Below are positions 2 to 5,490 of a DNA stretch of 43,234 nt, in pieces. The notes under the pieces are model-generated. The model was given only the letters and a program-made list of their open reading frames with translations. It ran no database searches and was not told where the DNA came from. Both the position numbers and the translations under genes were made by a program. The DNA lies in the NCBI GenBank assembly GCA_945890755.1, contig CAMDDA010000006.1, forward strand, positions 1-43,234, in the 5' to 3' direction. The DNA comes from Candidatus Kuenenia stuttgartensis (GTDB taxonomy: Bacteria > Planctomycetota > Planctomycetia > Pirellulales > UBA1268). The stretch's first letter is position 1, and the number at the start of each line of letters is the position of its first letter.

Positions 2-955
2 GCCGTTCGCGAGCACTCCGATCTGCTGCGGGAGTATTTCGGAAAGATCATCCCCCCGACCGACAACAAGTTCGCCGCCCTCAACTCGGCCGTGTGGTCC
101 GGCGGCTCGTTCATCTACGTGCCCAAGGGCGTGTCGATCGAATTCCCGCTCCAGGCGTACTTCCGCATCAACGCCGAAAGCATGGGGCAGTTCGAGCGGA
201 CGCTGATCATCGTCGACGAAGGCGCTCACGTGCACTACGTGGAGGGCTGCACCGCGCCGATGTACTCGACCGAGAGCCTCCACTCGGCGGTGGTGGAGAT
301 CGTGGTCAAGAAGCATGGTCGCTGCCGTTACACGACGATCCAAAACTGGGCCAACAACATCTACAACCTCGTCACCAAGCGGGCCATGGCCTACGAAGGC
401 GCCCTCATGGAGTGGATCGACGGCAACCTCGGCAGCCATCTGACGATGAAGTATCCGGCGGTCTACATGATGGAGCCCGGCGCACGCGGCGAGATTCTTT
501 CGATCGCCTTCGCCTCGGCCGGTCAGCACCAGGATGCCGGCGCCAAACTCGTGCATGCCGCCCCGCACACCAGCGGCCGGATCGTCTCCAAGAGCATCTC
601 GAAGAACGGCGGCCGGGCCAGCTACCGTGGCCTCGTGAAGGTGGAGCCGGGGGCCCGCAAGAGCCGGTCGAGCGTCGTCTGCGACGCGCTCATCCTCGAC
701 GACAAGAGCCGCAGCGACACCTACCCCTACATCGAGATCGAAGAGCAGGACGTATCGATCGGTCACGAGGCGAGTGTCTCGAAGATCGGCGAGGAGCAGC
801 TCTTCTATCTGATGAGCCGCGGCCTCACCGAGGCGGAGGCGAGCACGATGATCGTCGGCGGGTTCATCGAGCCGCTCGTGAAGGAACTGCCGATGGAGTA
901 TGCCGTCGAGATGAACAAGCTGATCCAGCTCCAGATGGAAGGCTCGGTGGGCTGA
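2..955 (+). CDS. sufB: Fe-S cluster assembly protein SufB (5' truncated by window edge)
   Basis: The frame is open from base 2, so the ATG at 92 in the ORF track is internal. Upstream codons read [31 protein letters not shown], typical SufB sequence. The visible part covers the SufB/SufD beta-helix core, with [12 protein letters not shown], the EGCTAP segment and the C-terminal block around [19 protein letters not shown]. SufB is the scaffold subunit of the cytoplasmic SufBCD complex, which builds Fe-S clusters. The stop is 4 bases before the sufD ATG, so the two are almost certainly co-transcribed. sufC would be expected upstream, outside the window. The family assignment is secure; only the N-terminus is missing. 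Confidence 0.96.
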
Positions 956-959
956 CCTC

Positions 960-2336
960 ATGACGACCGCCGTCGCTCCGCCGCCTGCCGCCACGCCCTT
1001 CACCCGCGAACTGCTCGAGTTGATGATCCGCGGGTCGGCGTCGCCCGACTGGGCGTCCGATCTCCGCCGCGATGCCGTCGATCGGCTCGCGGCTCTCGGC
1101 CTCCCCGACCGCCGAGACGAAAACTGGATGCGGACCGACCTGCGGCTGTTCAAGCCTGCCAACTGGTCGTTCCGTCCCGCCCCGGCGGCCGACGCATCGC
1201 TGCCTCGGGGTCTGCTCACCACCGGATCCACCGCGCTCGCCGAGGACTTCGACGACGCCCCGACCGAAGCGGCCCCGGCCACGCTTGCCGGCCGGTTTAC
1301 GGCGCTCGACGGCCATGTCGTGGTCGATGAACTCGCTCCGGAACTGGCCGCTCAAGGTGTGGTATTCGGCTCCGCCGATCGCCTGCTCGCGGAACGGCCC
1401 GATGCCTTTCGGCCGCACTGGTTTTCGGTCATCGATCCCGGGTGCGACTGGTTCGCCGCCCTGCATGCCGCGTTCCATCGGGCCAGTGCGGTGCTCTACG
1501 TGCCGCCGGGCGTGCGGGTCACGGCTCCGTTTCATGTGCTCTCCGCCCTCTCCGATGGCGGCCTCGATACCGGGCACGTGCTCGTGGTGCTCGGCGACGG
1601 AGCCGAGGCCACCGTGCTCACGGAGACGGCCGGCGGTGGAGCGAGCGGCAACGGCGGATTCCACTGCGGCGGCACCGAGATCGTCGTCGGCCAGTCGGCC
1701 TTCCTGCGGATGGTGAATCTCCAGAATTGGAACACGGGCGTCTGGCACTTCGCCCGGCAGAAAGCGGTCGTCCATGCCGGGGGCAGGCTCCAGTGGACGC
1801 TCGGCGCCCTCGGCAGCCGGCTCTCGCAGGTGGCGCAGGACGTCGCCCTCGTCGGCCGCAATGCCAACGCCCAGGTGAACGGCGTGATGTTCACGGAAGG
1901 CCGCCAGCAGCTCGTCTACAACACACTTCAGCACCACGAGGCCCCGGCCTGCAAGAGCGACCTGCTCTACAAGGGGGCCCTGCAGGATCGCAGCCGGCTC
2001 GTGTGGCGCGGCATGATCAAGGTGGACAAGGCGGCCCAGAAGACCGACGGCTACCAGCGGAACGACAACCTGATGCTCTCCAAGGAGTCGCGGGCCGATT
2101 CGATCCCGGGCCTGGAGATCGAGGCCGACGATGTGCGGTGCACGCACGGTGCAACCAGCGGCCGGGTGGACACCGACCAGATTTTCTACGCCCAGGCCCG
2201 CGGTCTCACGGCCGACGAGGCGGCGAGGCTGGTGGTGGCCGGCTTCTTCCAGCAGGTGTTCGACCGCATCACGATCGCACCCGTTCGCGAGGCTCTCGCC
2301 CGCGCGATCGGGCAGCGAATCCGCCGAATCAACTGA
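960..2336 (+). CDS. sufD: Fe-S cluster assembly protein SufD
   Basis: This 458-residue protein has the SufD layout: a variable N-terminal half, then a SufB/D-like beta-helix. That core includes the ALHAAFHRASAVLYVPPGV region and the conserved C-terminal block with LMLSKESRADSIPGLEIEADDVRCTHGATSGRVD and RGLTADEAARLVVAGFF. It partners SufB and SufC in the cytoplasmic SufBCD complex, which assembles and delivers Fe-S clusters. The ATG at 960 sits 4 bases after the sufB stop, and the next gene starts 13 bases after the sufD stop. This is therefore a tight operon. The length is normal for the family. Confidence 0.96.
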   Translation: MTTAVAPPPAATPFTRELLELMIRGSASPDWASDLRRDAVDRLAALGLPDRRDENWMRTDLRLFKPANWSFRPAPAADASLPRGLLTTGSTALAEDFDDAPTEAAPATLAGRFTALDGHVVVDELAPELAAQGVVFGSADRLLAERPDAFRPHWFSVIDPGCDWFAALHAAFHRASAVLYVPPGVRVTAPFHVLSALSDGGLDTGHVLVVLGDGAEATVLTETAGGGASGNGGFHCGGTEIVVGQSAFLRMVNLQNWNTGVWHFARQKAVVHAGGRLQWTLGALGSRLSQVAQDVALVGRNANAQVNGVMFTEGRQQLVYNTLQHHEAPACKSDLLYKGALQDRSRLVWRGMIKVDKAAQKTDGYQRNDNLMLSKESRADSIPGLEIEADDVRCTHGATSGRVDTDQIFYAQARGLTADEAARLVVAGFFQQVFDRITIAPVREALARAIGQRIRRIN

Positions 2337-2349
2337 GGTGCCACAACGC

Positions 2350-3138
2350 ATGGCCGAATTCGTGAAGGTTGCGAACGTCTCCGAAGTGCCCGATCCGGGC
2401 AAGACGCTCGTCGAGGTCGATGGCGAGATGGTGGCCCTGTTCCACGTCGACGGGCAGTGGCATGCGATCGACGACGTCTGCACGCACGACGGCGGCCCGC
2501 TGGCCGACGGCGAGCTCCGCAATCACACGATCTCCTGTCCGCGGCACGGAGCGAAGTTCGATATCCGCACCGGTGCCGCCCTCACGATGCCGGCCATCCG
2601 GCCGACGCGGGCCCACGACGTGAAGGTCGAAGGGGCCACGGTGTTCGTGCGGCTTCGGGAAGAGCCCGGGTCCGCCGGCCCGGCAGCCCATGCGTTGCCG
2701 ATCCAGGCGACGGGAACGGCCGGCTCGGCGCAGGTGGCGGCGTCCGTGCCTGCGGCCGCCACGCCCGGGGCGGCAACTGCGTCCGCGACAGCCGCTGCAT
2801 CCCCGGCGGCCGGCCAGCCGCTCTGCGAGGATGCCGTTCGCGAACTGCTCAAGGACGTGAAGGACCCCGAGCTCTTCGTCAACATCGTCGACCTCGGTCT
2901 CATCTACGGCGTGACGCTCTCTCCGGCCGCCGATACCGGCGGCAAGCAGCACGTGGCGATCGACATGACGATGACGAGCCCGGCCTGCCCTGCCGGTCCG
3001 CAACTGATCGGCGACACGAAGCGGGTGCTGGCCGCCCATCCGGAGGTCTCGGCCGTCGAGGTGCGGATCGTCATGGATCCTCCCTGGACCCCCGACCGCA
3101 TGACCGAAGCCGCCCGCGACCAGCTCGGGATCTTCTAA
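2350..3138 (+). CDS. Rieske [2Fe-2S] ferredoxin fused to a MIP18/SufT-like (DUF59) domain
   Basis: The protein has 262 residues in two domains. Residues 1 to about 105 are a Rieske-type ferredoxin with both cluster boxes visible: CTHDGG (C44, H46) and CPRHGAKFD (C63, H66). An Ala/Pro/Gly-rich linker of about 50 residues follows. The C-terminal part of about 105 residues is a MIP18/PaaD/SufT-type domain, with KDPELFVNIVDLGLIYGV and the conserved cysteine in MTSPACPAGPQL, ending MDPPWTPDRMTEAARDQLGIF. MIP18-family proteins act in Fe-S maturation, so its place after sufBD suggests a carrier or targeting role with a bound redox cluster; that role is inferred. The start is the ATG at 2350, with GAGGTG 9 bases upstream. 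The longer ORF from 2131 would run through sufD. Confidence 0.9.
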   Translation: MAEFVKVANVSEVPDPGKTLVEVDGEMVALFHVDGQWHAIDDVCTHDGGPLADGELRNHTISCPRHGAKFDIRTGAALTMPAIRPTRAHDVKVEGATVFVRLREEPGSAGPAAHALPIQATGTAGSAQVAASVPAAATPGAATASATAAASPAAGQPLCEDAVRELLKDVKDPELFVNIVDLGLIYGVTLSPAADTGGKQHVAIDMTMTSPACPAGPQLIGDTKRVLAAHPEVSAVEVRIVMDPPWTPDRMTEAARDQLGIF

Positions 3139-3465: not shown

Positions 3466-4083
3466 TCACGGCGTCGTGGTTGGCAGCAGGCTGCGGATTT
3501 CAGCCTCGACGTCGGCGTAGGTGAACGGCCGGCCGAGCCGGCGGGCTGCGTCGTCGTCGTCGAACCGGCGGGCGAGCGTGCCGTCGGGCTTCCAGACGTA
3601 AACGGCCGGGATGCTCACGAGGTCGAGCTTCTCGTAAAGCGAGTCCGCGTCTTCCTTCGTGAGCATGTTCTCGATCCCGCCCGCGCCGACCTTCTCCAGG
3701 AACGACCGCACCGGCGGCAGGACCTCCTCGGGGGTGCCGAGGCCCTCGTAGTCGAAGGAGATGGAGAGGCAGGCCACCTGATCGCGATACTTCTGCGCCA
3801 GCGCGACGAGGCTCGGGAATTCCTTCACGCAGGGGGGGCACGACGTGCTCCAGCAGTCGAGCACGACGATCCGGCCGCGATGGCGCTCGACGGCCGCCAT
3901 CAGGCCGGCGTGATCGACGAGCGCGACGTCGATGGCCTGCGTGGCCGAGCGCGGCTCGACCGGTGCCGGTGCGGCCGTGGCGGCCGGCGGCGGCTGCGGA
4001 GGTGGCGAGCAGCCGGCGATCGGGCAGAATGCCAGACCAGCCGCCACGATCAGATGCCACGCGATGCCACGATTCGAGCACAT
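3466..4083 (-). CDS. TlpA-like thioredoxin-fold lipoprotein
   Basis: This is a 205-residue protein with a lipoprotein signal: hydrophobic WHLIVAAGLAF, lipobox PIAG-C at Cys25, then a Pro/Ala-rich tether. The mature part is a TlpA/ResA-type thioredoxin fold with the active site WSTSCPPC (C82, C85) and the cis-Pro region near SIPAVYVWKPDG. Such proteins exchange thiols and disulfides at the cell envelope, often for cytochrome c maturation or protein repair; the substrate here is unknown. The start is the ATG at 4083, because the ORF-track start at 4317 adds 78 residues of shadow sequence before the signal peptide. This start overlaps the divergent trmH-like start by 20 bases. The stop codon lies inside family A repeat sequence. 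Confidence 0.85.
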   Translation of the reverse strand: MCSNRGIAWHLIVAAGLAFCPIAGCSPPPQPPPAATAAPAPVEPRSATQAIDVALVDHAGLMAAVERHRGRIVVLDCWSTSCPPCVKEFPSLVALAQKYRDQVACLSISFDYEGLGTPEEVLPPVRSFLEKVGAGGIENMLTKEDADSLYEKLDLVSIPAVYVWKPDGTLARRFDDDDAARRLGRPFTYADVEAEIRSLLPTTTP

Positions 4084-4579
4084 CAGGCACAAGCCTCCCG
4101 AGATCCTGCCGACGCCGCGCGAGCTCGTCGTCGCCTGCGCGGCGATGCGCAGCCATGTCAATCTCTCGCATATCGTACGGACCTGCGGCTGTTTTGGCAT
4201 CCGCCGCGTGATCGCCTGCGGCGCGGCCCGGCTGCATGAGCGGATCGCCCGCGACGGCGCCGAGTCGGTGGTGCTCGACGTGCATCGCAGCCTGCCCCCC
4301 GTGCTCGACCGGCTCAAGGCCGAGGGCTATCAGCTCGTGGGCCTCGAGCAGACGACGCATTCGGAGCGGCTGTTTTCGTTTGCGTTCGCGCCACGGACGG
4401 TGCTGGTGATCGGCAACGAGCGGACGGGGCTGGAGCCCGACGAGCTCGTGCGGCTCGACCGCGTGGCCGAGATTCCGATGGCCGGGATGCCCCACAGTCT
4501 CAATGCCGCCACGTCCACGGCGATCGCGGTCTATGAATACTGCCGCCAGCATCCGGTGGCCGTGGGGATTGCACCGTGA
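4064..4579 (+). CDS. TrmH/SpoU family RNA 2'-O-methyltransferase
   Basis: The 171-residue product shows the SPOUT (trefoil-knot) motifs. They are NLSHIVRTCGCFGI (motif 1), LVIGNERTGL (motif 2) and IPMAGMPHSLNAATSTAIAVYEY (motif 3). These enzymes methylate ribose 2'-OH groups in tRNA or rRNA using SAM; the target cannot be told from sequence. The start at 4064 keeps the HIRHKPPEI lead-in. An alternative is the ATG at 4145, which would remove the overlap with the lipoprotein gene but cut close to motif 1. The stop TGA overlaps the GTG of the next gene (GTGA), which suggests translational coupling. Confidence 0.85.
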   Translation: MPRFEHIRHKPPEILPTPRELVVACAAMRSHVNLSHIVRTCGCFGIRRVIACGAARLHERIARDGAESVVLDVHRSLPPVLDRLKAEGYQLVGLEQTTHSERLFSFAFAPRTVLVIGNERTGLEPDELVRLDRVAEIPMAGMPHSLNAATSTAIAVYEYCRQHPVAVGIAP

Positions 4580-5490
4580 CGCTCGTCATCGGTGCTGACG
4601 AAGCGGGCTATGGGCCCAACCTCGGCCCGCTCGTCGTCGCGGCCACGGCCTGGCGGGTCGATGCCGTGCCCGACGACGTCGAGCAGCGATTCGCCGCGGT
4701 CGCGGCCGAGCTTGCCGGCCTGTGGGGCGACTCGAAGCAGATCTACAAGGGCGGAGCCGGCCTCGCAGCGCTCGAGCGCGGCGCACTGGCCGGCATCGCG
4801 GTCACGACCGGGCGCATGCCCGCGGCCTGGAGCGAACTCGCCCCCGTCGTCGGCTGCCTGCAGGATGTCGAGCTACCGGAGTACGAGTCGCTGTGCGCGA
4901 TCACCCTGCCGGTCGCAGCCGATCTCGATGCCGGTCTGCCTCCAGCGCTCGCTGCAACGCTGGCCGCTCAGGGCGTGACGCTCGCGGCGGTGCGGTGCAC
5001 GGTGGTCTCTCCGGCGGCCTTCAATCGACTCCTCGACGCCGGCCTCAACAAGTCGGATCTGCTCTCGCAGGTGACGCTCGACCTCGCGGCGGGCCTGGTC
5101 GCGGCGGCTGGGCCGACGGTCGTCTGGTGTGATCGGCACGGCGGCCGCAAGCGGTATGCGCCGCTGGTCTCCAGGCATTTTTCCGCGCCACTCGTGCAGG
5201 CCCGGGAGGAGACGAACGTCCGCTCCGTCTATGCCATCCCGGCGGCGAACCTCCGGATCGAGTTCAGCGTGGGGGGCGAGGCGAGGACGCCCGTGGCGTT
5301 GGCGAGCATGACGGCGAAGTATGTGCGGGAACTGGCGATGCGGGCCTTCAACGGCCACTGGGGCCGGCTGGTGCCCGGCCTGGAGCCGACGGCCGGGTAT
5401 CCCGTCGATGCGGTTCGCTGGCGGCGAGCGGCGGCGGCGGCCGTGGAGCAGGCGGGCACCGACTGGGATGCGGTCTGGCGCCGGGCGTGA
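4576..5490 (+). CDS. Ribonuclease HII-like protein, divergent family
   Basis: The 304-residue protein opens with IGADEAGYGPNLGPLVVAA, which matches the RNase HII DEAG active-site block (D8, E9). A DSK motif (GDSKQIYKG) follows, as in RNase HII DSKKL. A later WCDRHGGRKRY supplies a possible third carboxylate. GGEARTPVALASMTAKYVRE resembles the RNase HII block GDA..siAAASilAKvtRD, with Glu where the fourth Asp is expected. Typical RNase HII is about 200 residues, so this protein has about 100 extra residues between the blocks. The role in cleaving RNA in RNA/DNA hybrids is inferred. The start is GTG at 4576, overlapping the trmH-like stop (GTGA). Confidence 0.7.
   Translation: MTLVIGADEAGYGPNLGPLVVAATAWRVDAVPDDVEQRFAAVAAELAGLWGDSKQIYKGGAGLAALERGALAGIAVTTGRMPAAWSELAPVVGCLQDVELPEYESLCAITLPVAADLDAGLPPALAATLAAQGVTLAAVRCTVVSPAAFNRLLDAGLNKSDLLSQVTLDLAAGLVAAAGPTVVWCDRHGGRKRYAPLVSRHFSAPLVQAREETNVRSVYAIPAANLRIEFSVGGEARTPVALASMTAKYVRELAMRAFNGHWGRLVPGLEPTAGYPVDAVRWRRAAAAAVEQAGTDWDAVWRRA

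Follow-up and report, generated by a model that had tools for sequence, protein, structure and literature searches.

A Rieske ferredoxin–SufT fusion at the end of planctomycete suf operons and its plausible redox role in Fe-S cluster assembly

The fusion gene and its operon

The window, i.e. the entire stretch of 43,234 nucleotides analysed here, opens with two genes of a suf operon, which are followed by an open reading frame encoding a Rieske ferredoxin domain and a DUF59/MIP18 (SufT) domain in one polypeptide (Table 1). This frame starts with ATG at 2350, 13 nt past the sufD stop (2336), and ends with TAA at 3138, in agreement with the place after sufBD proposed in an initial sequence-only reading. 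The first gene, sufB, is cut because the window is the start of its contig (C6); a 5′ part of sufB was registered on another contig of the same draft genome (C271), together with sufR, a nuoB-like gene and sufC.

Table 1. Features of the fusion gene and of the preceding suf genes (window coordinates)
Feature	Position	Strand	Basis
sufB, 5′ end missing	2..955	+	NCBIfam sufB, 514.6 bits
sufD	960..2336	+	NCBIfam, 247.7 bits
Rieske-SufT fusion ORF, 262 aa	2350..3138	+	Pfam domains; unbroken in relatives
Rieske [2Fe-2S] ferredoxin domain	2350..2664	+	Pfam match aa 4-86; fold reaches ~aa 104
Rieske ligand box 1, C44-T-H46	2479..2487	+	sequence; alignment
Rieske ligand box 2, C63-P-R-H66	2536..2547	+	sequence; alignment
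Disordered Ala/Pro/Ser/Thr/Gly-rich linker, aa 107-152	2668..2805	+	pLDDT <50 (AlphaFold)
DUF59/MIP18 (SufT) domain	2827..3135	+	Pfam match aa 160-238; AlphaFold; Foldseek
DUF59 cysteine C213	2986..2988	+	invariant in alignment

The operon comparison was scored on related loci with enough flanking sequence. All seven genes in the order sufR, nuoB-like, sufC, sufB, sufD, Rieske, sufT were found in 47 of them, shorter loci carry a part of the same order, and four loci lack the nuoB-like gene only. The suf gene order ending with Rieske-sufT is therefore near-invariant, and the sufB-sufD-Rieske-sufT succession, whose conservation across planctomycetes had been proposed as a check, is kept in nearly all loci with flank. 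The DUF59 domain is encoded directly after sufD and so lies within four ORFs of sufBC, the distance that marks suf-operon-associated SufT. No sufS was seen adjoining the suf operon in related loci with flank; SufS-family genes scored above cut-off elsewhere in 8 of 20 relatives' genomes, and none reached it in the window's own draft, which is 87.8% complete.

The nuoB-like gene deserves separate mention. It belongs to the family of the 20-kDa subunit of complex I and in most of these operons stands alone, flanked by sufR and sufC (L130 on the window's own contig C271; L003-L082, upstream of sufC). Its [4Fe-4S] cysteine pattern is intact in all 53 copies checked, and the window's genome encodes another nuoB (L131) within a separate nuoA-B-C-D operon. 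The extra NuoB-type protein could add a second redox component, or a client, to the SUF operon. Downstream of the fusion the window carries a thioredoxin/TlpA-like ORF of lipoprotein type with a CPPC motif (3466-4100, minus strand), beyond it a SpoU-type methyltransferase (3932-4579), the frame of which overlaps the former, and then a partial match to RNase HII (4576-5490).

Domains and linker of the fusion protein

Both domain calls of the sequence-only reading were borne out by Pfam (66.8 bits against a cut-off of 20.3 for Rieske PF00355, and 52.3 against 23.5 for FeS_assembly_P/DUF59 PF01883), and the structures agree. For the N-terminal half Foldseek returned oxygenase Rieske ferredoxins 2qpz and 2e4q (TMt 0.87-0.93, the highest for 2qpz), and the nearest solved structures by sequence are dioxygenase ferredoxins 2qpz and 5bok. 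The ligand motif C44-x-H46 - x16 - C63-x-x-H66 fits the CxH - x15-17 - CxxH pattern. Scores for dioxygenase-ferredoxin equivalogs of the HcaC/AndAb kind (NCBIfam) are all below cut-off (91.8 vs 113, 74.4 vs 150 and 66.1 vs 150 bits), and a bc1-type Rieske identity was rejected by scores. A search of 20 relatives' genomes, among them the window's own draft of 87.8% completeness, turned up no BphA4-type ferredoxin reductase (PF14759), and an oxygenase system was rejected on that ground.

For the C-terminal half the structures recovered by Foldseek are DUF59 proteins (3lno, TMt 0.79-0.83), and 3lno and 5ird are also the nearest solved ones by sequence. The characteristic residues DPE (172-174) and T209-x3-C213 are present, with 34 residues between DPE and T as compared with DPE-x26-31-T-x2/3-C, the published pattern around the hyper-reactive cysteine. 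Because the domain scores below both SufT equivalog cut-offs (85.1 vs 143.4 bits for SUF_assoc TIGR02945 and 103.9 vs 202.6 for long SufT TIGR03406), it is filed here as a SufT-like domain of the DUF59 family belonging to neither equivalog. PaaD, a subunit of phenylacetyl-CoA epoxidase, was rejected (70.5 bits against a cut-off of 180, and 45.2 against one of 108), and the second PF01883 match of the genome was dismissed as a competing SufT, being the N-terminal part of a Mrp/ApbC-type ATPase.

The Rieske ligands and Cys213, read as intact from the start, are invariant across 15 aligned fusions, and both motifs are retained in 99 of 100 related loci. In one fusion (L075:2956-3702) the DUF59 half lacks DLGLIY after DPELFVNIV, present in all other aligned rows; this gap is possibly an assembly or local error.

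The AlphaFold model consists of two confident domains with a disordered stretch between them, and its pTM of 0.45 implies that the halves have no fixed contact. Across the family the linker varies from 41 to 70 aa and is composed of Ala, Pro, Ser, Thr and Gly by ~74%; its sequence is unconserved, and the flanking domains are highly conserved. Thus the two domains are predicted to fold independently and to be joined by a flexible linker.

Distribution and history of the fusion

The possibility that the fusion is restricted to this assembly, named initially as one of two findings that would refute the idea, is not the case: it is unbroken in 60 of the 72 genomes of the window's family, which excludes chance. 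In the remaining family genomes the region is missing from draft assemblies, except for one (G306) that retains the SufT half alone, its contig ending inside the linker. Fused copies are also present in two single-contig near-complete genomes, G252 and G270, and together with the 60 unbroken family copies they reject an assembly or frameshift artefact. One genome bin (G334) contains two fused copies with equal match score on contigs C63 and C162 (L014, L015), which may reflect duplication either of the operon or in the assembly. Among the best 80 loci from a separate, independent search of public genomes, 62 were fused and 18 split, and some of these 80 loci belong to the same species as the 72 family genomes.

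The second such finding, splitting into two genes in relatives, does apply to neighbouring families. Within the 72 family genomes no stop was found between the Rieske and DUF59 domains, whereas neighbouring families have separate adjacent Rieske and sufT genes in the same operon position. In Blastopirellula marina DSM 3645, for instance, a Rieske protein of 104 aa is followed by SufT of 106 aa with 18 nt between them. The gaps of split pairs range from 0 to 216 nt by a mechanical choice of start codons. In another, more distant family of the class (f4) four genomes (G252, G281, G270 and G198) have the fusion, others have split neighbours, and in some there is no linkage between the top matches for Rieske and SufT.

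On the tree of concatenated SufB and SufD, which leaves out the window itself because its sufB is cut, the fused or split label requires five changes, and at least four of them are forced by well-supported branches, which gives a minimum of four to five; the analysis was repeated on 33 rows. The large fused clade containing the window's family has full support, and a fully supported branch separates f4 from the Pirellulales-like rows. Approximately unbiased (AU) tests on SufB+SufD rejected all fused rows as a single clade (p-AU 6.6e-69) and the Pirellulales-like fused rows held together (p-AU 1.4e-4), so that a single ancient fusion retained as one clade was discarded. These are quick trees, and neither the root nor the direction of changes was inferred from them. 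Some changes may be fissions, but several fusions would be favoured over several fissions, because most of the deep and outgroup rows show the split state. Since split genes are adjacent, share the operon and were repeatedly fused, the split state is no argument against functional coupling, and recurrent fusion in a conserved operon argues that Rieske and SufT act together.

The association is not limited to planctomycetes. A Paraburkholderia megaplasmid carries sufB-sufC-sufD-sufS-sufU-DUF59-Rieske, and a Microbacterium plasmid Rieske-sufC-DUF59; in the plasmid records no single place covers 80% of the fusion query, and separate neighbouring genes were found instead. The suf cluster of Streptomyces peucetius encodes Rieske ferredoxin SpFdx4, a working electron carrier with ferredoxin reductase (PMC12979805). 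Taken together these clusters make the association of Rieske and SufT with SUF wider than the phylum, although they are examples and not a census, as our genome searches were centred on the window's own phylum.

One can assume that all this is only a matter of convenient co-expression, in which two independent proteins of the SUF regulon, one of them an all-purpose ferredoxin used by other enzymes, were joined by the loss of a stop codon. Adjacent genes separated by 0-216 nt fuse easily, an unconserved flexible linker between domains without fixed contact is in line with such an accident, and in S. peucetius a P450 also receives electrons from the suf ferredoxin (PMC12979805). However, the fusion was repeated, the leash of 41-70 aa is retained family-wide, and both genes are present in suf clusters from two other phyla, which leaves this explanation unlikely.

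Plausible redox role in SUF and known relatives

A redox role of the fusion in SUF, which the sequence-only reading suggested as that of an electron-supplying carrier, is plausible. In a 2021 review the electron donor to SufBC2D was called unknown (PMC8593673), the leading candidate being FADH2 on SufBC2D (PMC6006206). The pairing of Rieske and SufT is genuine, has been retained widely and was fused on more than one occasion, which makes the fusion a good candidate for an electron supplier of SUF. We give about even chances to the fusion being a two-domain SUF accessory factor, i.e. SufT with its own tethered ferredoxin donating electrons.

Co-function and electron transfer are our inference, as are the partners for docking and the direction in which electrons flow. 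The SufT half would dock via its presumably reactive cysteine C213, both on SufS/SufU or SufBCD as SUF components and on client apo-proteins. Tethered by a flexible leash of ~50 residues, the Rieske half would accept electrons from a cellular reductase and hand them over locally, being presented where needed by the docked SufT. While a cluster is being built, these electrons might serve to reduce iron or persulfide sulfur (S0 to S2-); alternatively, they might support formation or repair of [4Fe-4S] clusters needed by SufT clients. The docking role fits M. tuberculosis SufT, which contains neither Fe nor an Fe-S cluster and binds SufS, SufU and aconitase via its conserved cysteine (PMC9045647). 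A tethered donor is thus favoured by docking of SufT, by the electron-carrier type of the Rieske domain, by the flexible leash and by the need of SUF for electrons. Against it stand many SUF systems, that of E. coli included, which function without a Rieske ferredoxin, as well as the absence of the PF14759 reductase in 20 relatives, the unlinked cases in f4 and the modest potential expected of the Rieske cluster. Rieske ferredoxins of oxygenase type have potentials of about -150 mV and are less reducing than the ISC ferredoxin.

The same exposed [2Fe-2S] cluster could instead sense oxidative stress or act as a redox gate, reporting oxidation or iron status and switching SufT-mediated delivery with no electron supply. 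The two exposed histidine ligands of the Rieske cluster speak for that, as do the SufR-type regulator at the head of the operon and the link of SUF with stress and iron limitation known from the literature. To our knowledge, however, Rieske ferredoxins of the oxygenase subtype are electron carriers wherever tested. So is the one from a suf cluster (PMC12979805), and a sensory function seems quite unlikely.

Yet another possibility is that the Rieske half acts not as a redox domain but as a carrier of clusters or a client, whose nascent [2Fe-2S] is passed on by SufT. Clusters with Cys2His2 ligation are usually bound stably, and the whole oxygenase-ferredoxin pattern is retained in the fusion, unlike in a labile carrier; such a role is therefore rather improbable, even though SufT, as an auxiliary factor in maturation, overlaps in function with the carrier Nfu (PMC8593673), and is also found fused to Nfu and, in architecture S5, to U-type scaffold domains (PMC4982691).

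Returning to the tethered donor, its generalization would be that the fusion exposes a dedicated electron donor for a branch of SUF, a Rieske ferredoxin that is the partner of SufT in planctomycetes and also in other phyla, where suf operons encode the two separately, as Fdx works for ISC; this is possible but on balance doubtful. In any case, a recurrent fusion of SufT and ferredoxin in the suf operon offers one soluble polypeptide for a direct test of both the SUF donor and the role of SufT. The literature poses the identity of the donor to the SUF scaffold as a question (PMC8593673), and the role of the SufT domain is puzzling as the M. tuberculosis protein has no cluster (PMC9045647).

The sequence-only reading named no characterised protein of this domain plan, but its hint at an unreported plan was not upheld. 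We found no characterised fusion of Rieske and DUF59 in the literature and no experiment on any of them, but the plan had already been listed as SufT architecture S7, an N-terminal Rieske oxygenase-type ferredoxin plus DUF59, with n = 3 of 761 (Mashruwala et al. 2016, PMC4982691); the main text of that paper leaves the organisms unnamed and does not mention planctomycetes. Judged by the described plan and not by sequences, S7 is identical to the fusion. It was catalogued only, without functional work, an account of repeated fusion or a comparison of planctomycete operons. Thus the domain combination has been on record since 2016, and the present analysis adds its fixation throughout the family, its split state in neighbouring families, its origin on more than one occasion and the operon comparison.

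Among better known systems, oxygenase Rieske ferredoxins (NDO-F 2qpz, BphA3 2e4q, HcaC) share the fold and ligand motif at 31-35% identity, but serve ring-hydroxylating dioxygenases via BphA4-type reductases, the kind not found in the 20 relatives. Stand-alone SufT (S. aureus SufT, M. tuberculosis Rv1466; 5ird, 3lno) shares DUF59 with DPE and T-x3-C and the link to suf operons, with ~44% identity between 3lno and the DUF59 half of the window protein, but, unlike the fusion, has no ferredoxin domain. SpFdx4 is similar to the Rieske half in being a Cys2His2 Rieske-type [2Fe-2S] protein of a suf cluster, but it is a separate protein and a P450 donor (PMC12979805). Finally, ISC ferredoxin Fdx has an unrelated Cys4 fold of plant/adrenodoxin type and belongs to a different assembly system, of which the fusion is not a member; nevertheless it is an operon-encoded [2Fe-2S] ferredoxin supplying cluster assembly with electrons, and the fusion is proposed to work likewise.
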